Source: Mycobacterium heckeshornense
GTDB lineage: Bacteria; Actinomycetota; Actinomycetes; Mycobacteriales; Mycobacteriaceae
DNA length: 64,000 bases
Direction: 5' to 3'
NCBI RefSeq assembly: GCF_016592155.1
Contig: NZ_AP024237.1
Span: 3,038,001 to 3,102,000 of the forward strand
Shown here: piece by piece, positions 5,628 to 42,836 of the stretch
Numbering within the stretch: the first letter of the stretch is position 1
Layout: each line of letters starts with the position of its first letter
The notes under the pieces: generated by a model
The model's input: only the letters and a program-made list of their open reading frames with translations
What the model was told of the DNA's origin: nothing
The model's database searches: none
Position numbers and translations under genes: made by a program

Positions 5628-6562
5628 ACCGCTCGCGCGTCCGGGTCGAGGCGAGCGCCGCGGGCCCAGTCGACCGCGTTCATGAACTTCTTTCCGGGCG
5701 GCTGGATCTGGCCCAGCCGTACCGGCTCCGACGAGGTGCCGATCCAGACGTCATGCCGACCGACGTGAATGCTGCCCGGTTCCAAGGGTTTCGGCGCTTG
5801 ATCGTCAATGCTGACCGGCCCGATTTTGACCCGCTGGTCGCCGATGAGTGTCCATGCACCGGGCTTCGGTGTGAAGGCTCGGATCCGCCGCTCGACGACC
5901 GGCGCGGGTAAGTCCCAGCGCACCCGCGCTCGGTCCACAGTGACCTTGGGAGCGAAGCTGACACCGTCGGCGGGCTGTGGCACCGGTGTGAGCGTGCCGT
6001 CGGCGATACCGTCGAGTGTGGTCTCCAGCAGCGCGGCGCCCGAAACGGCCAGTCGCTCAAGCAAATCGCCCGCGGTGTCGGTGGGCCGAATCTCCTCGGT
6101 GACGACGCCGTAGACCGGCCCCGAGTCCAGGCTCGGCTCGATGCGGAAGGTGGTCGCGCCGGTGATCGTGTCACCGGCCGCGATGGCCGCCTGCACGGGT
6201 GCGGCCCCGCGCCAGGCGGGCAGCAGCGAGAAGTGCACGTTGACCCAGCCGTGGGGAGGTATCGCGAGCAGCTCCTCGCCCAGCAGGGCACCGTAGGCCA
6301 CCACCGGGCAGCAGTCGGGTGCCAGCCCGCAGAGTTCGGCGACGAATTCAGCGGAGTTCGGCCGCCGCGGCCGCAGCAGCGGGATGCCCAGGTCGAGAGC
6401 CGCCCGCGCCACCGGCGACGGCTCCGGCCTGCCCCGGCGGCCGGACGCCGCGTCCGGGCGGGTGAGCACGGCGACCACGTCGTGCCGGGGCGAGTCGATG
6501 AGCCGACGCAACGCCGGCAACGCGGTTTCCGGGGTGCCGGCGAAGACGAGGCGCACCGGCAC
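5624..6562 (-). CDS. fmt: Methionyl-tRNA formyltransferase
   Basis: 312 residues. It formylates initiator Met-tRNA using 10-formyl-THF. The catalytic segment [16 protein letters not shown] (Asn/His) and the DSGPVYG segment are intact, and the C-terminal tRNA-binding domain ends near [10 protein letters not shown]. The start is a GTG at 6562 in front of [11 protein letters not shown], the usual N terminus. It heads the fmt-rsmB-rpe-ribD run. Nothing unusual is seen. Confidence 0.95.
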
Positions 6563-6598
6563 AGTCTAGGAACGGCGCCGCCGGACGTCGCCGGCCGA

Positions 6599-7078
6599 TC
6601 AGGCCCCGTCGTCGAGATGGGCGGCCGGCTCTCCCCCGGCGGCGGTGAACGCCGTGAGCGCGCGCACCAAGCCGTGACGTTCCGACGCCGGCATTCGTTC
6701 GACGATGCGGGCGATCTCGGCGCGCCGCTGTGCGGTGACCTTGCGCACCACCTCACGTCCGCGCTCGGTCAACGCGGCCAACAGTTCGCGGCGCGACGTG
6801 GGGTGAGGTTGACGGTCGACGAGCCCGGCGCCGACGAGCCGATCCACCATTCGGCCCGCGGCCGACGGCCGCACGCCCAGCACGGCGGCCAGGGTCGCGA
6901 GGTTGATCGGGCCGCGGTTGGACAGGATCACCAGGGTCCGGAACTGCGGGATGGTGATGGTCTCGTCGACCCGGGCGATGGAGTGAGCCGAGATGCCCAC
7001 CAGCAGGCGTGATGCGGTCAACAGCGCGTCGGTGATCGCGTCGAGCGACTCCTCGGTTGCAGTGGCTTTGGTGGTCAT
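6599..7078 (-). CDS. MarR-family transcriptional regulator
   Basis: A 159-residue winged-helix regulator. The helix-turn-helix spans roughly residues 55-85 (NLATLAAVLGVRPSAAGRMV), followed by the wing RQPHPTSRRELLAALT. I chose the ATG at 7078 (MTTKATATEES), which gives the length of the M. tuberculosis counterpart Rv1404; an upstream GTG would add 17 residues. It is divergent from a methyltransferase gene that it probably controls, and the AT-rich gap between them contains a candidate operator. The ligand is unknown. Confidence 0.85.
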   Translation of the reverse strand: MTTKATATEESLDAITDALLTASRLLVGISAHSIARVDETITIPQFRTLVILSNRGPINLATLAAVLGVRPSAAGRMVDRLVGAGLVDRQPHPTSRRELLAALTERGREVVRKVTAQRRAEIARIVERMPASERHGLVRALTAFTAAGGEPAAHLDDGA

Positions 7079-7141
7079 GGCCGCGCTTTCTGTGGTCACG
7101 CCGATCGTTTCGGCACACAGGGTTGCCACAGCATAGCAGCA

Positions 7142-7186
7142 GACAACTATAACCTACCAGAACTATTTCCTAAGACTACTATTGTC
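7142..7186. promoter_or_regulatory. Candidate MarR operator/promoter region
   Basis: The divergent gap between the marR-type gene and the methyltransferase gene is strikingly AT-rich for this genome. It contains the dyad GACAA (7142-7146) ... TTGTC (7182-7186) and two AACTAT copies. MarR proteins usually autoregulate from such sites. The exact site is inferred. Confidence 0.35.
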
Positions 7187-7219
7187 GTACGAACCCCGCA
7201 TTCCTGGAGGAGATTCTCA

Positions 7220-34833: not shown

Positions 34834-36072
34834 ATGTCGCAGCCGACAGTCCTGATCAGCGGAGCCGGGATCGGTGGACCCGCCCTGGCCCACTGGCTCA
34901 CCCGGTATGGATATCGGGTCATCGTTGTCGAGGTCGCACCGGATCTTCGTCTGGGCGGCCAGACCGTCGACCTGCGCGGTGCCGGGCGGACCGTGGTCGA
35001 GCGGATGGGCCTGATGGACCGGATGCGGGAACGCTGTCTGTATCAGAGGGGAATTGCGTGGGTGACCGCCGAGGGGCGGCGGCGCGCGGAGATGCCGGTC
35101 GGCGCATTCCACGGCAACGGCGTGGTCAGTGAATTCGAGATCCTGCGCGGCGATCTCGTCGATGTCCTCTACCAGGCCACCGCCAGGCACGTGGAATACC
35201 GTTTCGGGCAGCGCATTACGTCGTTGGAACAACACGACGACGATGTCGTGGCGACGCTGTCGGATGGCAGCACGATCCGCGCCGGCCTGGTGGTCGGGGC
35301 CGACGGCCCGCATTCTGGTGTGCGCCGGCTGGTATTCGGGCCAGAAGAGCGCTACCTTCGCCCGCTGGGCGGCTACCACGCCTGGTTCACCGCACCCGAC
35401 ACCGCTGGCCTGGATGGCTGGTTTCTGATGTATGTCGCGCCCGGCGGGCTCAATGCCTCCATGCGGCCCTCGCATGAGGCCGCTGTCGCCAAGGCCGGTT
35501 TGGCCTTTCGCTCAGATCCATTGGATTACGACCGCAGTGACCGCGACGCGCAATGCGACCTGCTGGCACAGCGGTTCGCCGGCGCGGGCTGGCAGTGCGA
35601 CGCCTTGGTCGCGGCCGCGCGCAAGGCCGACGACTTCCATTTCGATGCGTTCGCCCAGGTTCACATGGACGCCTGGTCGGCGGGACGGGTCACGCTGGTC
35701 GGTGACGCCGGCTACTGCGCATCACCGCTCAGCGGTATGGGTACCAGCCTGGCGCTGGTGGGCGCCTACGTGTTGGCCGGCGAACTCGGCCAGGCCGACG
35801 GTGCGGGGATCGGCACCGAGCGGTTGCGGGCCGCGCTGCACCGCTACCACACCGTCATGCGACCGTATGTGGATCGGTGCCAGAAGATACCCAACGGCAT
35901 CGACGGCTTCGTTCCCAAGTCCGCCTTCGATATTCGCTTGAACGCTCTGGCTATGAAGTACATGCAACGCTGGCCGTTCCGGCCCCTTGCCGAACGGCTG
36001 TGGTTTACCACCGCCGACGCTATCGACTTGCCCGACTACACAGCTTCACGCCCGGAGGCGCGTCGCGCATAG
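34834..36072 (+). CDS. FAD-dependent aromatic-hydroxylase-type monooxygenase
   Basis: 412 residues of the PHBH/UbiH class. FAD motifs: VLISGAGIGGPALAHWL near residue 6, the DG motif VVGADGPHSGVR near 150, and the GD motif VTLVGDAGYCASPLSGMG near 287. It resembles mycobacterial tetracycline-destructase/Rv1751-like hydroxylases, so it could modify an antibiotic or aromatic compound. The divergent TetR gene points to induction by its substrate. Its 3' end overlaps the opposite-strand HEAT-repeat gene by 37 bases. Confidence 0.87.
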   Translation: MSQPTVLISGAGIGGPALAHWLTRYGYRVIVVEVAPDLRLGGQTVDLRGAGRTVVERMGLMDRMRERCLYQRGIAWVTAEGRRRAEMPVGAFHGNGVVSEFEILRGDLVDVLYQATARHVEYRFGQRITSLEQHDDDVVATLSDGSTIRAGLVVGADGPHSGVRRLVFGPEERYLRPLGGYHAWFTAPDTAGLDGWFLMYVAPGGLNASMRPSHEAAVAKAGLAFRSDPLDYDRSDRDAQCDLLAQRFAGAGWQCDALVAAARKADDFHFDAFAQVHMDAWSAGRVTLVGDAGYCASPLSGMGTSLALVGAYVLAGELGQADGAGIGTERLRAALHRYHTVMRPYVDRCQKIPNGIDGFVPKSAFDIRLNALAMKYMQRWPFRPLAERLWFTTADAIDLPDYTASRPEARRA

Positions 36073-38728
36073 GCCCGCACGTCGGCGTCGCTGTCTTTGA
36101 CCGCGATGCCGAGCGCGTCCCGCGCGGCGGGTTCGTCGACCCATCGCGTGAGGGCCAACACCGCCGCCTTGCGCACGTCGGGATGCTCGTCGCCCAACAG
36201 GGGCGTCAGCCTCGGCACTGCGCTCTTAGCCGCCGCACCCGCCAGCGCCCGCGCGGCACCCTGGCGCACCTGCCAGGCCGATGACCGCGACGCTTCGTCG
36301 ACGGTCACGAGATCGCTCTCCTCGCAACCTAAATCACCCAACGCAGCGAGGGCTGCCGCCCGCACCAGCGGGTCGGTGTCGGCGACCAAAGCGCGGACGG
36401 TGTCGGCGCCGGCCCGCAGGGTGGCCAGGCCGTTGGCCGCAGCGATGCGGACTTCGCGGTTGTCGTCGCCGACCGCAGCGCCAACCCCGGCAGCGTCGTC
36501 GATCGATACCAGCGCGCGTACAGCCTCGACGCGCACCCGGTGGTCAGCGTCGGACAGTGCGCGGCGGTAGTGACCGGGGGGTGCCCTCGCGGCGCGCGGC
36601 CAGAACATGGACTGCAACTGCCCGGACAACCGCATCCGGAGAATGCAGATAAGACTGGGCCGCAACGGGTTGCGGCAAGATTTCGACAAGTTCGCGGACC
36701 CCGTCGGCCGCGGCGCGTCGGACCCCCCGGGTCGTCGTCGTCAAGGGCAGCTAGCAGCGCAGGCGCGTAGTCGGTCGGCGTGTGTTCGGTCAGGATCGCC
36801 ACCGCAGTCCGGCGCACCCGCGGGTCCGGATCGCCTAGGTAGGCCGCCAGGTCGGCGGTGCTCGGATGTTCGCATGCGAGCACTTCGGCGATGCGGGATG
36901 ATGGCGGATCGGTCGGGGCGGGCGCCTGTGGTTTCGGAGCTGTGGTGCTGGTCGGCGCCCGACCGCCGACCAGCGCCGGCTGCGGCACGACCCGCACCGT
37001 CTGATCGGCTGGCGGCAGCGTGTCCAGTCCGGCGACCGGAATGAAATACGGTGCTACCGGCCGTTTCAAAAACTGCATGTCGCCGTTGCCATCCTTGCGC
37101 AGGATGAGGTGGTAGGCCCACTGCCGGTCGTCGCGGTCGGGCAGGTCGGCGCGGTCATGATAGAGACCCCAGCGCGATTCGGTCCGTGTCAGCGAGGCTC
37201 GGGCGGCCATCTCGGCGCAGTCCCGGATGAACGACACTTCGACGGCGCGCATCAGCTCGTGCGGCGTGCGCGCCCCCATCTCGGCGATCTCGGCGCGCAT
37301 TCGCTCGAACGTGCGGACCGCGATCGACAGCTTGGCCGCGGTTTTCGGCGGCGCGACATAGTCGTTGACGAACCGGCGCAGCTTGTATTCGACCTGCGGC
37401 TGGGGCGGTCCGTCGGGGTGGCGCAACGGCCGGTAGATCAGCTCGTGGGCTTCTGCTAGCTGGTCTTCCGGAAGACGCTGCGGGGCCGGCACCTCGGCAA
37501 GAGTCGAGGCCGCCTGCTCACCGGCCAGGTCGCCGAAGACGAACGCCCCGATCATGTAGTTGTGCGGGACGCAGGCCAGGTCACCTGCGGCGTACAACCC
37601 GGGAACGGTGGTGCGGGCGTGCTCATCGACCCACACCCCGGACGCGGAATGACCTGAGCACAAGCCAATTTCGGAGATGTGCATCTCGACATCGTGGGTG
37701 CGGTAGTTGTGGCCGCGGTTGGCGTGGAAGGTGCCGCGAGTGGGCCGTTCGGTGGTGTGCAGGATGTTTTCCAGCGCGCTCAGCTTCTCGTCGGGCAGGT
37801 GCGACACCTTCAAATAGATGGGGCCGCGGGCGGACTCGATCTCGCTGCGCACCTCGGCCATCATCTGCCCCGACCAGTAGTCGGAGTCGACAAACCGTTC
37901 CCCCAACGCGTTGACCTGGTAGCCACCGAATGGGTTGGCCACATACGCGCACGCCGGCCCGTTGTAATCCTTGATCAGCGGGTTGATTTGGAAGCACTCG
38001 ATGCCCGAGAGTTCCGCGCCGGCGTGATACGCCATCGAATACCCGTCACCGGCGTTAGTCGGGTTCTCGTAGGTGCCATACAGATACCCCGAAGCGGGCA
38101 GGCCCAGCCGCCCGCACGCCCCGGTGGCCAGGATCACCGCCTTGGCACCGACAGTGACGAATTCGCCGGTGCGGGTGTGCAATGCGGCCGCGCCCACCGC
38201 CCGGCCATCGGCGACCAGCACCCGCACCGGCATCACCCGATTCTCGATGCGGATCTTCGCCCGCATCGAGCGTTGCCGCAGCACCCGGTACAGCGCCTTT
38301 TTGATGTCCTTGCCTTCGGGCATGGGCAGCACGTAGGAACCGGAGCGGTGCACGCGGCGCACCGCGTATTCGCCGCGCTCATCTTTTTCGAACTTGACGC
38401 CGTAGCGTTCGAGCCGCTGTACCATCGCGAACCCGCGGGTGGCGGTCTGGTAGATGGTGCGCTGGTTGACGATTCCATCGTTGGCGCGGGTGATTTCGGC
38501 GACGTAGTCCTCGGGTTTAGCCCTGCCCGGGATGACGGCGTTGTTGACCCCGTCCATTCCCATCGCCAGCGCGCCGGAATGGCGCACGTGCGCCTTCTCC
38601 AGCAGCAGCACGTTCGCGCCACGCTCGGCGGCCGTCAGCGCGGCCATGGTGCCCGCGGTGCCGCCGCCGATCACCAGGACGTCGCAGTCCATCCGCTCCG
38701 GTCGGGTCAGGTCGGGAATCTCCATCAT
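36036..38728 (-). pseudogene. AprA/FrdA-like flavoprotein fused to HEAT repeats, two frameshifts
   Basis: The first ~600 residues are an FAD protein of the fumarate reductase/adenylylsulfate reductase alpha class: CDVLVIGGGTAGTMAALTA (residue 15), LATGACGRLGLPASGY, and GVWVDEHARTTVPGLYAAGD. A Pro-rich linker leads into nine HEAT/PBS-lyase-type repeats with the pattern D-x-D-x-x-VR-x-A. The reading frame breaks twice: removing one base from the six-base G/C run at 36722-36727 and one from the run at 36576-36581 restores a continuous protein of about 896 residues. Either a decaying gene or homopolymer sequencing errors. The ATG overlaps the ABC ATPase stop (ATGA). Confidence 0.78.
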
Positions 38729-39465
38729 TCGGCGATCGAATGCTCCAGTGCAGCAATGACTTCAGCCCGCAATGCCGGCCTTGCCCCGGCCGTTCGTGGC
38801 GCCGGCACATCGAGGAGAGCGCGCAGCGGTTGCCCGGTTCGGCCCAGCACCGCGACCCGGTCGCCCAGCGCGAGAGCTTCGTCGACGTCGTGGGTCACGA
38901 ACACGATCGTGGTCGGATGTGTGCGCCAGGCGCCGATGAGCAGCCGCTGCATGGCGGCACGAGTCTGGGTGTCCAGCGCACCGAACGGCTCGTCCATCAT
39001 CACCGCTCGCGGCGCACCGGCCAGTCCGCGCGCCAGCTGCACCCGCTGGCGCATCCCACCCGAAAGGCTCTTGGGCAGGTAGTCGCCGAAGCCGGTCAGC
39101 CCGAGCTCGGTGATCCAGCGGTCGGCCTGGGCGCGGCGGGTGGCTCGCGGTTCGCCGCGCAGTCGCAGCGCCAGCTCGATATTGGAGCGCACGCTGCGCC
39201 ACGGCAGCAACGCATTGTCCTGGAATACCACGCCGCGCTCGCCAGAGGTGCCGGTGACCTCGACGCCGTCGGCCAGCACCCACCCCCGGTCGGGTGCCAG
39301 CAGCCCGGCCAGCGCACGCAGCACCGTCGTCTTACCGCAGCCCGATGGCCCCGTCAGCACCAGGATCTCGCCCGACCCCACGTCCAGGCTTAGCCCGTCG
39401 ATGACCGGAATCCCGTTGTAGGACAACCTGACTCGGTCCAGCTCAAGGCGCATCCCGGACGTCAT
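38725..39465 (-). CDS. NitT/TauT-type ABC transporter ATP-binding protein
   Basis: 246 residues with Walker A GPSGCGKTTVL, signature LSGGMRQRVQLARGL, Walker B AVMMDEPFGALD, and switch His in VFVTHDVDEAL. It belongs to the SsuB/TauB/NrtD class that imports sulfonates, taurine, nitrate or related anions. It overlaps both the permease and the flavoprotein gene by four bases. Confidence 0.92.
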   Translation of the reverse strand: MTSGMRLELDRVRLSYNGIPVIDGLSLDVGSGEILVLTGPSGCGKTTVLRALAGLLAPDRGWVLADGVEVTGTSGERGVVFQDNALLPWRSVRSNIELALRLRGEPRATRRAQADRWITELGLTGFGDYLPKSLSGGMRQRVQLARGLAGAPRAVMMDEPFGALDTQTRAAMQRLLIGAWRTHPTTIVFVTHDVDEALALGDRVAVLGRTGQPLRALLDVPAPRTAGARPALRAEVIAALEHSIAE

Positions 39466-40310
39466 CGCGCGTTGTCCTCACCGCGGGGCAGCCAGCGCGT
39501 CACCCGGCGGCCCACCAGTTCCACTGCCGCGGACGTGGCGAACCCGAGCACCCCGATCGTGATGATGCCGACGAACACGTGCGGGTAAGCCAGCACCGTA
39601 TAGGCCTGCCAGGTGCGATACCCCACACCGAGACGACCGGAGATCATCTCTGCCGAGATCACGCAGATCCAGGCCACGCCCATGCCCACCGAAAGTCCGC
39701 CGAACACGCCCGGCAGGATGCCCGGCAACACCACCTGGGTCAGCACGTCCCACCGGCCACCACCCATCGTGCGAACGGAGTCCTCCCAGAGGGTGGGCAG
39801 CGCCCGCACCGCGTGTCGGGTGCTGACCATGACCGGGAAATACGCCGCCAAGAACGTGATGAACACCACCCCGGCTTCGTCGGTGGGAAATAGCAGGATC
39901 GCCACCGGCACCACCGCGATTGCCGGGATCGGGCGAGCCAGCTCGGCCAACGGGCCGAGCAAGTCGCCGGCCAACCGCGACCGGCCCAGCATGATGCCGG
40001 TCGCCACACCAACGACCGCGGCTAGCCCGAAGCCGGTGAGGATGCGAACCAGCGACTGGGCCAAGTCAAGCCAGTAATCCTGAGTGCAGAGTCGGTGAAC
40101 CAGTGCCATGGTGATCTCGTCCACCGTCGGCAGGGTGTCAAAGCGCAGCCACAACCGCGCATGGTTGGCGGTGAGCGCCTGCCACAGTCCCAGCGCGGCG
40201 GCCACCGACGCCAGGCGAAGCAGCCGAGACCGCCACGGAGAACGCCCGTTTCGGGGTGGCGCAGTGACCGGCTCGAGTTCTACCGGGGCGCTGACACTGA
40301 CGGCAGTCAT
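39462..40310 (-). CDS. NitT/TauT-type ABC transporter permease
   Basis: 282 residues from the ATG at 40310, which overlaps the binding-protein stop (ATGA). About six hydrophobic segments, with the EAA loop MGGGRWDVLTQVVLPGILPG that contacts the ATPase. It is of the SsuC/TauC class. The N-terminal 40 residues are Pro/Arg-rich and cytoplasmic. Confidence 0.9.
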   Translation of the reverse strand: MTAVSVSAPVELEPVTAPPRNGRSPWRSRLLRLASVAAALGLWQALTANHARLWLRFDTLPTVDEITMALVHRLCTQDYWLDLAQSLVRILTGFGLAAVVGVATGIMLGRSRLAGDLLGPLAELARPIPAIAVVPVAILLFPTDEAGVVFITFLAAYFPVMVSTRHAVRALPTLWEDSVRTMGGGRWDVLTQVVLPGILPGVFGGLSVGMGVAWICVISAEMISGRLGVGYRTWQAYTVLAYPHVFVGIITIGVLGFATSAAVELVGRRVTRWLPRGEDNAR

Positions 40311-41674
40311 GCCGCGCCCGCCAAGGCTTGCTGGTAGTCCAACGCGACGCTGCCCGGATGCGACGCGACATAACGCTGTGCACCTGCCGGGGTATCGAAT
40401 GGCAGATACTGTTCGCCATCCTTTACCCACGTCGACCTGTCGGCGAACCAGCGGGTGCCCAGCTCGGCGTCGTGGACATAAGCCGCCCGCACGCGCGCGC
40501 CATGGGCGGTCGCGTCACGCACCGCTTTGAGCAGGGCTCCCGGGTCGGAAACTGGTCGGGTGCGCTCTGATCCGTACAGCCACAGCTCACCGCCGGTCCG
40601 CGACGGGCTGTTGAGGACGGCGACCGCCTTGCCGTAGTCGAGCTTTCGTGTGGCGAAGGCCGCACGCAGTGGCGCGTCCTGGACGAAGCCGCCGACATCG
40701 AGATCTGCGAAGTCACCGATCGATTTCAGGTATAGCACATCGTTTTTCAAGGCTTCAACCAGCGACGGTTTGAGCGTGGTGTCGAACGACGTGCCACCCG
40801 GACCGTTGTAGAGGTACACGACCTCTTGCGGCAGCCCACTGCTCTCGGCGACGATGCGGGCTGCTTCCAGCGGGTTGTCGTTGAGGAAGTCGGTGGCATC
40901 GAGCTGGGCCTGCAGGAAGGCGTCGAGCACCTCGGGGTGGGCCGTCGCGTAGGCGCGGCGCACCACCACACCGTGCAAGGTCGGGTAGTTCAGCTCGGCT
41001 CCGTCGTAGAGCAGTTTCGCCTTGCCCTGGTAGACCAGCAGGCCTGGCCAGGCCACGAACTGCGAAAGCGCTTGCACCTGACCTGATTCCAGCGCAGAAG
41101 CCCCGACCTGCGGCTGCTGGTTGAGCACTTCCACACCGGTACGGGGATTGATGCCGGCGGCGGACAATGCCCGCACCAGGGTGCCGTGACCCGCTGAGCC
41201 GACACTGGCCGACACCTTCTTGCCGGCCAAGTCGGTCATCGCTGTCGCGGTGGAATTCGGCGCCACCACCACCATGTTCAGCGCGCCCTTGGGTTGATAG
41301 CCGGTGACCGACACAATCTCGGTGCGGGCGCGCTCGTTGGCCTGCGTTTTGGAGCCGTTGATCAACATCGGGAAGTCGCCCATCGAGCCAATGTCGATCT
41401 TCTCGGCCACCATCTGCGCGGTGATCGGCGCGCCGGTGTCGTAATCCTGCCACACCACGCGGTATTTGGTACCGGTGCGCTTGGTGATGTCGGCCAGCCG
41501 GTGCTCCAGGAAGCCTTGCGCGCGCAACAGCGTGCCGGCAGTCACGGTATTGATGGTCTTGGATTGATAGCCGACCACGACGTTGACGGCGCCAGCGGAG
41601 TCCAGCGCGCATCCGGCGGCCGCCACACCGAACACAGTGGCGGCCGAGGCCAATCGGACCATGGGTCTGCTCAT
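40307..41674 (-). CDS. Substrate-binding lipoprotein with C-terminal extension
   Basis: 455 residues. The signal ends in a lipobox AAGC (Cys22). Residues 30-340 form an SsuA/TauA/NMT1-like periplasmic-binding fold (SKTINTVTAGTLLRAQGF, DIGSMGDFPMLING, ALESGQVQALSQF). The last ~110 residues go beyond the usual fold and end with YLPFDTPAGAQRYVASHPG, which resembles a NosL-type domain. The ligand is unknown; aliphatic sulfonate-like anions are the commonest ligands of this class. Confidence 0.85.
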   Translation of the reverse strand: MSRPMVRLASAATVFGVAAAGCALDSAGAVNVVVGYQSKTINTVTAGTLLRAQGFLEHRLADITKRTGTKYRVVWQDYDTGAPITAQMVAEKIDIGSMGDFPMLINGSKTQANERARTEIVSVTGYQPKGALNMVVVAPNSTATAMTDLAGKKVSASVGSAGHGTLVRALSAAGINPRTGVEVLNQQPQVGASALESGQVQALSQFVAWPGLLVYQGKAKLLYDGAELNYPTLHGVVVRRAYATAHPEVLDAFLQAQLDATDFLNDNPLEAARIVAESSGLPQEVVYLYNGPGGTSFDTTLKPSLVEALKNDVLYLKSIGDFADLDVGGFVQDAPLRAAFATRKLDYGKAVAVLNSPSRTGGELWLYGSERTRPVSDPGALLKAVRDATAHGARVRAAYVHDAELGTRWFADRSTWVKDGEQYLPFDTPAGAQRYVASHPGSVALDYQQALAGAA

Positions 41675-41689
41675 GAGATTCCCTGGTGT

Positions 41690-41917
41690 CTATCGAATCA
41701 GGTAGGGCATGTTGACGGTGACCGCATCGGTCGGGCAGCGGGCCGCACACGGGCCGCAGTACCAACACTCGTCAACGTGCATGAAAGCTTTGCCGGTCTC
41801 AGGGTTGATCGCCAGTGAGTCCAGCGGGCAGATGTCGACACAGAGCGTGCAGCCGTCGATACACAGGGATTCGTCGATCGTCACAGGGACATCGACACGG
41901 TGGGTGACCAGCGTCAT
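41690..41917 (-). CDS. 2[4Fe-4S] ferredoxin, AprB-like
   Basis: 75 residues with eight cluster cysteines: CIDGCTLCVDICP (C-x3-C-x2-C-x3-CP) and CWYCGPCAARCP (CxxCxxCxxxCP). The wider first cysteine spacing recalls adenylylsulfate reductase beta subunits. It would pass electrons to or from the flavoprotein encoded at the end of the operon. It overlaps the GntR stop by four bases and is 15 bases upstream of the binding-protein gene. Confidence 0.9.
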   Translation of the reverse strand: MTLVTHRVDVPVTIDESLCIDGCTLCVDICPLDSLAINPETGKAFMHVDECWYCGPCAARCPTDAVTVNMPYLIR

Positions 41918-42651
41918 TGTTTGCTCCTAATCAGGTTGCCGCGCATTGTGATTCGATCACCGCGCATCCTGATGTATTCCAGATCAACAGGCTGGCCGTC
42001 GTCGAGGCGGGTGAGGCGCTCCAGCATCAGCAGCGGAGCGCCGTCGGGAATCTGCAACGTGGCCGCCGAATGGGCATCGGCGGGAATGGCCTCCAATGCC
42101 AGGGTTGCTGCGCCCAGCCGCTGTCCGCTGACTTGTTCGATCAGCGCGAAGATGTCATGGGTTTCCAGCTGATGGGCGGCGACTAAATCGCCGATGTGGG
42201 GAGTGAGGTAGGTCAGATCCAGGCTGAGCGGCAGCTCGTCGAGGTAGCGCAGACGTTCAATGAACATCACCGGCTGGCCGGGCTGTACTCGCAACCGGTG
42301 GGCGACCGCCGGTGGAGCGGTCACCTGCGTCGCGGCCCGTACCTCGTTGCGGACCTCGCCGTGCCCGGTCAGCGTCTCCTTTAAACCGAGCAGCCTATCG
42401 AGGCCGTGGGCGTACTTGCGCTGCGCGATTTGTGTGCCGACCTTGGGGCCCCGATCGATCAGCCCCTCGCTTTTCAGGACGGCCAGCGCCGCACGAATGG
42501 TATTGCGAGACACGAAGAATTCCGCAGCCAACTGCTGTTCGGCGGGTAGCCCCTCGTCGTAGGCGCCGGCGTGGATCGCCTGCCGCAGCACGTCGGCGAC
42601 CTGGCGGGCACGATCGGCCCGGGGGCGATGGATCGGCAACGGCACGGTCAC
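41914..42651 (-). CDS. GntR/HutC-family regulator
   Basis: 245 residues from a GTG. The N-terminal winged helix reads LPAEQQLAAEFFVSRNTIRA and the C-terminal half is a UTRA ligand domain (PVMFIERLRYLDELPLSLDL). It is the first gene of the operon GntR-ferredoxin-binding protein-permease-ATPase-flavoprotein and is coupled to the ferredoxin gene, so it probably senses the imported compound and autoregulates. Confidence 0.9.
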   Translation of the reverse strand: MTVPLPIHRPRADRARQVADVLRQAIHAGAYDEGLPAEQQLAAEFFVSRNTIRAALAVLKSEGLIDRGPKVGTQIAQRKYAHGLDRLLGLKETLTGHGEVRNEVRAATQVTAPPAVAHRLRVQPGQPVMFIERLRYLDELPLSLDLTYLTPHIGDLVAAHQLETHDIFALIEQVSGQRLGAATLALEAIPADAHSAATLQIPDGAPLLMLERLTRLDDGQPVDLEYIRMRGDRITMRGNLIRSKQ

Positions 42652-42836
42652 GCCGACACGCTAATGCGATTCGCCGGTCGGCCCGACCGGCGTGGACGGC
42701 GACCGCGGCGCCGGTCCGCACATTGCGCCGCCCGCGTTTCCGCGGTCATCAGGCGAAAGCACTGCGTCAGCCGGCGATTACGCCACCTGCGAGGCAAACC
42801 GTGCGATTTGCATCCGGCTGAGCAGAACCCCGCGGG
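42652..42836. other. 185-base gap holding the GntR-operon promoter
   Basis: No gene is seen. It lies between the GntR operon start and the end of the PPOX gene (both minus strand), so it should contain the operon promoter and possibly a terminator. I could not pick a convincing GntR operator. Confidence 0.4.

Follow-up and report, generated by a model that had tools for sequence, protein, structure and literature searches.

How does an enzyme pair resembling adenosine 5'-phosphosulfate (APS) reductase, AprAB, serve an aerobic bacterium when its genes lie beside those of a sulfonate-class importer? This question is raised by a six-gene operon of Mycobacterium heckeshornense, found at 36036..42651 of a stretch of 64,000 nucleotides (contig NZ_AP024237.1, positions 3,038,001 to 3,102,000), which we call the window. 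Known aerobic desulfonation relies on oxygenases (SsuD, TauD, the ssu/asf system) or on C-S lyases that depend on a specific group next to the bond (Xsc, SuyAB, CuyA). A widespread enzyme of the AprAB kind, encoded next to an importer of the sulfonate class, could bring in another desulfonation chemistry. It could also account for the use of organosulfur in bacteria without the alkanesulfonate monooxygenase SsuD, of which none exceeded the cut-off in the genome studied here, and it would set right the naming of a very large family, at present called fumarate reductase.

The flavoprotein of the operon is well supported, by sequence, as a member of a third clade within the group of AprA and 3'-phosphoadenosine 5'-phosphosulfate (PAPS) reductases. 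Similarly well supported is an ATP-binding cassette (ABC) importer of the SsuA/TauA class. Whether the whole forms a self-contained unit for sulfur scavenging is a more balanced matter, to which we would give about an even chance. The elements, all on the minus strand, are:

41914..42651, minus strand: GntR/UTRA-family transcriptional regulator, 245 amino acids (PF00392 9e-15, PF07702 3.8e-33)
41690..41917, minus strand: 2[4Fe-4S] ferredoxin, 75 amino acids (Fer4_7 and related models; AprB-type Trp within CWYCGPC)
40307..41674, minus strand: lipoprotein substrate-binding protein of the SsuA/TauA class, extended at its C-terminus by a NosL-like part, 455 amino acids (SsuA_fam 126.3 bits)
39462..40310, minus strand: ABC permease, 282 amino acids from the ATG at 40310 (PF00528 4.6e-19); an alternative, longer GTG frame begins at 40430
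38725..39465, minus strand: ABC ATPase, 246 amino acids (PF00005 3.8e-30)
36329..38728, minus strand: AprA-class flavin adenine dinucleotide (FAD) flavoprotein, 799-amino-acid frame (PRK13800 match to residues 2-666)
36036..36689, minus strand: HEAT-repeat tail of the flavoprotein in a displaced frame (HEAT_2 4.2e-24; PRK13800 positions 717-895)
42722..42784, minus strand: tandem GGCGYAAT boxes, candidate operator, 5' of the GntR gene

A sequence-only reading of this DNA had described an operon of six genes joined by 4-base overlaps and a single 15-base gap. This layout is indeed present on the minus strand, with four such overlaps and the gap between the ferredoxin and binding-protein genes. 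The flavoprotein, however, does not extend to 36036 as one frame; its open frame stops at 36329 and the HEAT tail is displaced. Up to about residue 668 (about 36725) the frame can be taken as genuine, and the ~130 residues after that are off-frame. These residues were part of the 799-residue query in the domain, family, structure, genome-scan, plasmid-record and C. metallidurans searches reported below.

The flavoprotein and its ferredoxin partner

The first frame alone scores 1419.5 bits over residues 2-666 against NCBIfam PRK13800 (NF010374), above the cut-off of 1196, and the protein is a member of that family. The family name, fumarate reductase/succinate dehydrogenase (PRK13800/PRK08275), is not supported by our phylogeny. 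In a maximum-likelihood tree (38 sequences, 533 columns, midpoint-rooted, with ultrafast bootstrap (UFBoot) support), 14 family members form one clade (UFBoot 100). Its sister clade (UFBoot 100) contains AprA of A. fulgidus, three more AprA-type proteins, the PAPS reductase MtPAPSR and two MtPAPSR-like proteins, and the two clades are joined at UFBoot 100. SdhA/FrdA proteins, two paralogues from the same genome, and an AsfA candidate from C. metallidurans fall outside both. Tree labels were assigned with curated models: L120 passes AprA; L111 and L112 pass PRK06854 (812 and 756 bits); L118, L122, L126, L128 and L132 pass the SdhA/FrdA model TIGR01812, L126 also FrdA and L128 also SdhA. Left out of the tree were 75 of the 80 actinobacterial loci described below, the close duplicates L123, L127 and L131, L113, from which no long open reading frame (ORF) was recovered, and L004, L005, L093 and L094.

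The window flavoprotein stays under the cut-offs of the models for the better-known families, with 129.9 bits against 641.75 for TIGR02061 (AprA, dissimilatory APS reductase), 275 against 557 for PRK06854 (MtPAPSR type) and 157.9 against 567.3 for TIGR01812 (SdhA/FrdA). An identity as FrdA or SdhA is ruled out by the tree position together with the scores. The nearest solved structure is 8a8o, the alpha subunit of the PAPS reductase of M. thermolithotrophicus (E-value 1.2e-60; 1.1e-79 with a profile). We found no characterised member of the flavoprotein clade. One source names a family member adenylylsulfate reductase subunit alpha (P0241).

The active site indicates what was kept and what was lost. 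According to the available excerpts of PMC2211403, AprA grips the sulfo group with Asn74, Trp234, Arg265 and His398, and the adenine with Arg317 and Leu278; the residue roles, and a reaction scheme with a sulfite adduct on flavin N5, follow the accessible parts of PMC10322725 and PMC2211403. All 14 family members retain the equivalents of Asn74, His398 and His446. In the same 14, Arg265 is replaced by Leu, Arg317 by Met and Trp234 by Tyr, while MtPAPSR, L111 and L112 retain all three. The Asn, His and Leu are also invariant across a wider alignment of 43 members. A check confirmed the His398 numbering. The assignment of Trp234 is softer, as another alignment puts the column on a Thr beside the same Tyr, with no Trp either way. 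The pocket thus retains part of the handling of the sulfo group, with nucleotide handling lost. Since Arg265, Trp234 and Arg317 are missing from all 14 members, APS or PAPS is unlikely to be the substrate.

The ferredoxin partner shows the AprB feature of two [4Fe-4S] clusters with an electron-relay Trp adjoining a cluster Cys. This CW motif was present in 89/89 loci in which a ferredoxin was found, out of 93 searched. The protein scores 30.8 bits against the AprB model TIGR02060, for which the cut-off is 135.65. Compared with AprBA of A. fulgidus (1jnr/2fja), the pair has in common the FAD fold, the two-cluster ferredoxin with its relay Trp and the equivalents of Asn74 and His398, and the two clades are sisters. 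It differs by the absence of Arg265, Trp234, Arg317 and Gln145 equivalents, by the HEAT tail and the importer in the operon, and by its separate clade. Furthermore, the hosts of the flavoprotein family are largely aerobic, unlike the setting of AprBA. MtPAPSR alpha (8a8o, PRK06854) is the closest solved relative by sequence and has the same type of partner, but retains the Arg and Trp.

AprAB of sulfate reducers had been proposed as the nearest analogue. The window protein belongs to a third clade with an altered active site and is neither AprAB nor FrdA. The phylogeny does not put it into a characterised family with a known substrate.

The importer and the spread of the module

The binding protein has a lipobox-like start, with a Cys that is invariant in 35 aligned homologues. 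Its AlphaFold model reached a predicted local distance difference test (pLDDT) value of 86, and the Foldseek ranks 1-8 were all SsuA/TauA, above DszB, CmpA and NrtA, at 20-22% identity and a query template-modelling (TM) score of 0.50-0.56. Against SsuA_fam (TIGR01728) the protein stays under the cut-off of 163.5, and the best NCBIfam match of the ATPase is the taurine ATPase PRK11248, with 212.7 bits against 357. As all three transporter proteins remain under the curated cut-offs, the class of the importer is established, and not its substrate. The importer class and the binding-protein fold are shared with ssuABC/tauABC, from which the operon differs in its scores below the curated cut-offs, in an extra NosL-like C-terminal domain and in having no SsuD or TauD. 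Among 44 aligned binding proteins, the C-terminal extension gives a NosL match in 9 (best 1.2e-6), and the window's own is not one of these. Metal binding by a Cys pair was considered as a general property of the NosL-like domain and rejected, for there is no Cys in 43/80 of these domains, including that of the window. The absence of Cys therefore does not mark this copy as defective.

A scan of species genomes gave 533 relatives' loci, the best 80 of which were fetched, and every one of these 80 was actinobacterial. All six genes, in identical order, were present in 74 of them, so the six-gene layout is far beyond chance and co-occurs across actinobacteria. Among the six incomplete loci, four are truncated by a contig end (L011, L022, L026, L062). 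L051 is a 4.3-kb contig of a metagenome-assembled genome, with the ferredoxin directly ahead of the flavoprotein. For L035, the DNA fetched breaks off within the ferredoxin, which lies 4.8 kb from the binding protein. Of the fetched loci, those nearest to the window operon come from Mycolicibacter and Mycobacterium. The PRK13800 cut-off was exceeded in 42/98 genomes of a genus sample and the PRK08275 cut-off in 8/296 genomes of a phylum-wide sample, and the distribution is thus patchy.

Clustering of the ORFs that flank the actinobacterial loci gave no recognisable functional partner, in a data set whose ORF calls were polluted by antisense frames and whose families were unannotated. Two inserts were rejected as operon partners: the one in L040 consists of house-keeping genes on a scaffold with Ns, and the one in L041 (Nocardia salmonicida, 5780-7216), between permease and ATPase, is a transposase-like gene, TnpB-like by eye.

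The family is also found outside the Actinobacteria. Plasmid records contained it at 55-62% identity in rhizobia, Methylobacterium, Methylocystis, Paraburkholderia, Caballeronia, Cupriavidus, Variovorax, Aquabacterium, Acinetobacter, Acidithiobacillus and cyanobacteria. For a Pseudomonas member, 6,370 of 7,998 scored candidates reached an E-value of 1e-100, counted by score alone and not by clade. We surveyed the flanks in 21 match regions (1 from Tsukamurella, 20 non-actinobacterial) of the approximately 48 full-length ones listed. In 20/20 of the non-actinobacterial regions, HEAT is encoded by a gene of its own, and 16/20 have a DUF971/GBBH-like or Mrp/NBP35 gene. The annotation of 17/21 regions includes binding protein, permease and ATPase; in gene tables that are incomplete, the importer genes are partial in H3 and H42, absent from H44 and represented by a distant ATPase only in H48. 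In proteobacterial relatives the ferredoxin and flavoprotein genes are adjacent. The regulator varies over the 21 regions, with GntR/UTRA adjoining the module in 7 and Crp/Fnr in the region in 11, and a LysR-domain gene lies near the module in three cyanobacteria. The separate HEAT gene and the varying regulators indicate that the conserved unit is the enzyme-importer module, not the whole six-gene layout. Similar modules, with HEAT separate and often another regulator, thus exist in Proteobacteria and Cyanobacteria besides Actinobacteria, a spread that the sequence-only reading had missed.

In a plasmid of Nostoc edaphicum (L089:7986-15392), two HAD, a methyltransferase, a GNAT and a VOC gene lie between flavoprotein and ferredoxin. 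These inserted genes may hint at the substrate there.

Candidate functions

When the preferred sulfur source is short, the GntR/UTRA repressor would release the operon, and the importer would take up a small anion of the organosulfonate type (R-SO3-). The ferredoxin would reduce the FAD of the flavoprotein. The conserved Asn and His, equivalent to Asn74 and His398, would hold the -SO3 group, and its transfer to flavin N5 would form a sulfite adduct, a step copied from the APS reductase scheme (available parts of PMC10322725 and PMC2211403). The sulfite released would then go to sulfite reductase, and the HEAT domain would probably be a docking scaffold. For this sequence of organosulfonate import and ferredoxin-driven sulfite release on FAD, of which we infer both the substrate and the chemistry, arguments in favour and against are close to balance. 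Such chemistry would suit best those compounds that release a better leaving group than a carbanion, for instance an amine, an alcohol or a thiol (sulfamates, sulfate esters, S-sulfonates).

The genomic surroundings are consistent with a role in sulfur metabolism. By hand count, 22 of the 219 non-module flank genes are sulfur-named, spread over 12/21 regions, compared with 2/259 genes in six 49-kb control regions, which were taken from six of these records. The Fisher test gives 1.8e-6, or 5.6e-5 without two near-duplicate regions, for records that are related to each other. The genes include TauE/SafE with YeiH or a sulfate exporter in three cyanobacteria, TauE/SafE in Aquabacterium, TSUP in Acinetobacter, sulfate/sulfonate ABC genes with TauD in two Sinorhizobium, TauA in Mesorhizobium, SsuA-type or sulfonate binding proteins in Cupriavidus, Nostoc and S. 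fredii, and a 3-mercaptopropionate dioxygenase and a rhodanese in Paraburkholderia. The genome that carries the operon also has two CysH genes that pass the cut-off, and at 0.4 kb from each lies a siroheme-reductase-like gene of 597-601 residues. The latter are taken to be sulfite reductases by size and neighbour, and score under the CobG cut-off. With these genes, the freed sulfite could be used. The CysH and siroheme-reductase-like genes (C1:1858977-1867739; L162, L163, L165, L166) form an inverted pair, with about 4.5 kb between the two halves, and resemble a duplicated set for assimilatory sulfate reduction.

Several points weigh against desulfonation by this pair. A carbanion leaving group would make reductive C-S cleavage hard, and our search found neither a substrate nor an expression datum. 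As described above, the three transporter proteins all stay under the curated cut-offs of the taurine/sulfonate families. No sulfur-named gene occurs in 9/21 flank regions, and the controls are imperfect, as all six control records had a positive region and some controls were plasmid-transfer blocks. The AlphaFold model of the flavoprotein of the homologue L006 reached a pLDDT of 62 overall; its catalytic domain failed, and the HEAT part was better. Lastly, oxygenase-type genes lie within 8-9 kb in 6/21 regions, namely flavin monooxygenases (H15, H6, H30), TauD/TfdA (H43, H42) and a Rieske protein (H47), which would fit an electron-donor role.

In such a role, flavoprotein and ferredoxin would be an electron-transfer pair feeding an unidentified or shared monooxygenase, and the flavoprotein would not touch the substrate, in the manner of asfABC. 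According to the accessible sections of PMC4267179, asfRABC of P. putida S-313 combines a reductase/ferredoxin with a sulfonate-binding protein and an ABC transporter under LysR control, in aerobic sulfur scavenging from aromatic sulfonates, and asfA is required for aromatic desulfonation. Excerpts of PMC9694294 report asfA in Rhodococcus and Williamsia as well. The part kinds are the same as in the window operon, and the cyanobacterial modules are adjoined by a LysR-domain gene, as asf has a LysR regulator. Because of the flanking oxygenases and these LysR neighbours, we have weighed the desulfonase reading down and the electron-donor role up. Nevertheless, the actinobacterial operon contains no oxygenase, its regulator in the window is GntR, and three ABC genes separate ferredoxin from flavoprotein. 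The record NC_007974, which we take to be the second chromosome of C. metallidurans, gave four matches to the window flavoprotein that are 30-42% identical and partial only, so any AsfA on it probably lies outside the clade. The asfAB genes of this species are placed on its second chromosome in the available text of PMC2864759. Its likely AsfA (L092), chosen by position and sulfur-type neighbours with an adjoining ferredoxin, falls outside the clade in the tree, and that ferredoxin has no Trp at the AprB position. Three sequence searches, with 120 matches listed in each and many of them unnamed, contained no match named AsfA. An electron-donor role is a serious contender, but on balance unlikely.

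The remaining explanations keep the flavoprotein as the catalyst, with other substrates. An AprAB-type enzyme for the assimilatory reduction of APS or PAPS, paired with an importer of sulfate or of a sulfate donor, would agree with MtPAPSR alpha as nearest solved structure and with the same two-cluster partner type. However, Arg265, Trp234 and the adenine-clamping Arg317, which MtPAPSR and the two MtPAPSR-like proteins retain, are replaced in all 14 family members of the tree, the scores for PRK06854 and AprA fall under their cut-offs, and the genome already has its two CysH. We rejected a canonical APS/PAPS reductase on the altered active site and these CysH genes, and consider this explanation very improbable. 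The pair could instead oxidise an imported reduced sulfur or sulfinate compound, with electrons flowing to the ferredoxin. AprAB is thought to run in reverse in sulfur oxidisers (PMC2211403, available part). Acidithiobacillus has the flavoprotein, ferredoxin and HEAT genes, and sulfite or sulfate exporters adjoin the module in three cyanobacteria. Yet the residues that bind the adenosine monophosphate part in AprA are lost, the importer is of a scavenging type and most of the hosts seen are not known to oxidise sulfur, which makes an oxidative route improbable. A sulfur-free anion, such as a phosphonate or carboxylate, with the flavoprotein as its dehydrogenase, would be in line with the PhnF-like match of the regulator (111.5 bits, under the cut-off of 156.8), with a weak Phosphonate-bd match in 44/44 binding proteins and with the HAD, VOC and amidase neighbours in Nostoc. 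Fold ranking, clade position and the sulfur enrichment of the flanks leave it hardly any probability.

Import of an organosulfonate-type anion followed by sulfite release remains our preferred reading. Uptake of a small, perhaps sulfur-containing, anion had been suggested from the pairing of an AprAB-like couple with a sulfonate-class importer. The pairing is supported, and a small sulfur anion does seem the likely substrate. Among the titles and abstracts listed by a literature search of open-licence full texts, none describes this layout or the flavoprotein family, and the accessible parts of four sulfonate papers (PMC7661421, PMC13352529, PMC3596284, PMC4070957) do not mention the operon. 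This agrees with the claim that no pathway with this layout has been described, which nonetheless had overlooked asfRABC as a functional precedent in aerobic desulfonation (PMC4267179, in part). By description only, the S-313 system differs in its LysR regulator, and the accessible text mentions no HEAT or NosL-like part. Functionally, asfABC is the nearest analogue of the window operon. A bolder proposal is a third AprAB-type class in aerobic bacteria, a ferredoxin-driven desulfonase that works through an N5-sulfite adduct without monooxygenase or activated nucleotide, spans at least three phyla and is hidden under the name fumarate reductase. We put this forward tentatively and consider it rather doubtful.

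Regulation and the broken last gene

Upstream of the GntR gene, GGCGCAAT occurs in at least one copy in 56/74 relatives and in two copies in 31/74. The reversed word and the same word 1 kb downstream were each found in 0/74. A single box is not rare, with 1 in the window against 4.1 expected, and the tandem form was found once in the genome (42722-42784). With no second tandem, no wider regulon can be read from it. The boxes fit a local repressor of this operon alone, and the GntR protein would bind the tandem. We looked upstream of the GntR gene for a perfect dyad operator and found none. In three cyanobacterial plasmids (L134, L141, L147), a gene annotated as 'LysR substrate-binding domain' lies in divergent orientation to the flavoprotein gene; its length of about 2 kb is unusual for LysR.

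The last gene of the window operon is broken. About 50 PRK13800 family positions between the flavoprotein frame and the HEAT frame are matched by neither. In the relatives, the HEAT tail lies within the flavoprotein ORF in 77/80 actinobacterial loci; of the other three, two are cut off where the contig ends and the third lies on a scaffold containing Ns. The break may represent decay or an assembly error, and with its HEAT part frame-broken the window enzyme may be impaired. The same gene is in pieces, in different frames on a single contig, in three genomes of the genus sample (G031, G045, G076), which suggests recurrent decay or recurrent sequencing errors. Beyond the break, the HEAT-tail frame converges with a plus-strand FAD monooxygenase-like gene (34834-36072), the two overlapping by 37 bases at 36036-36072.

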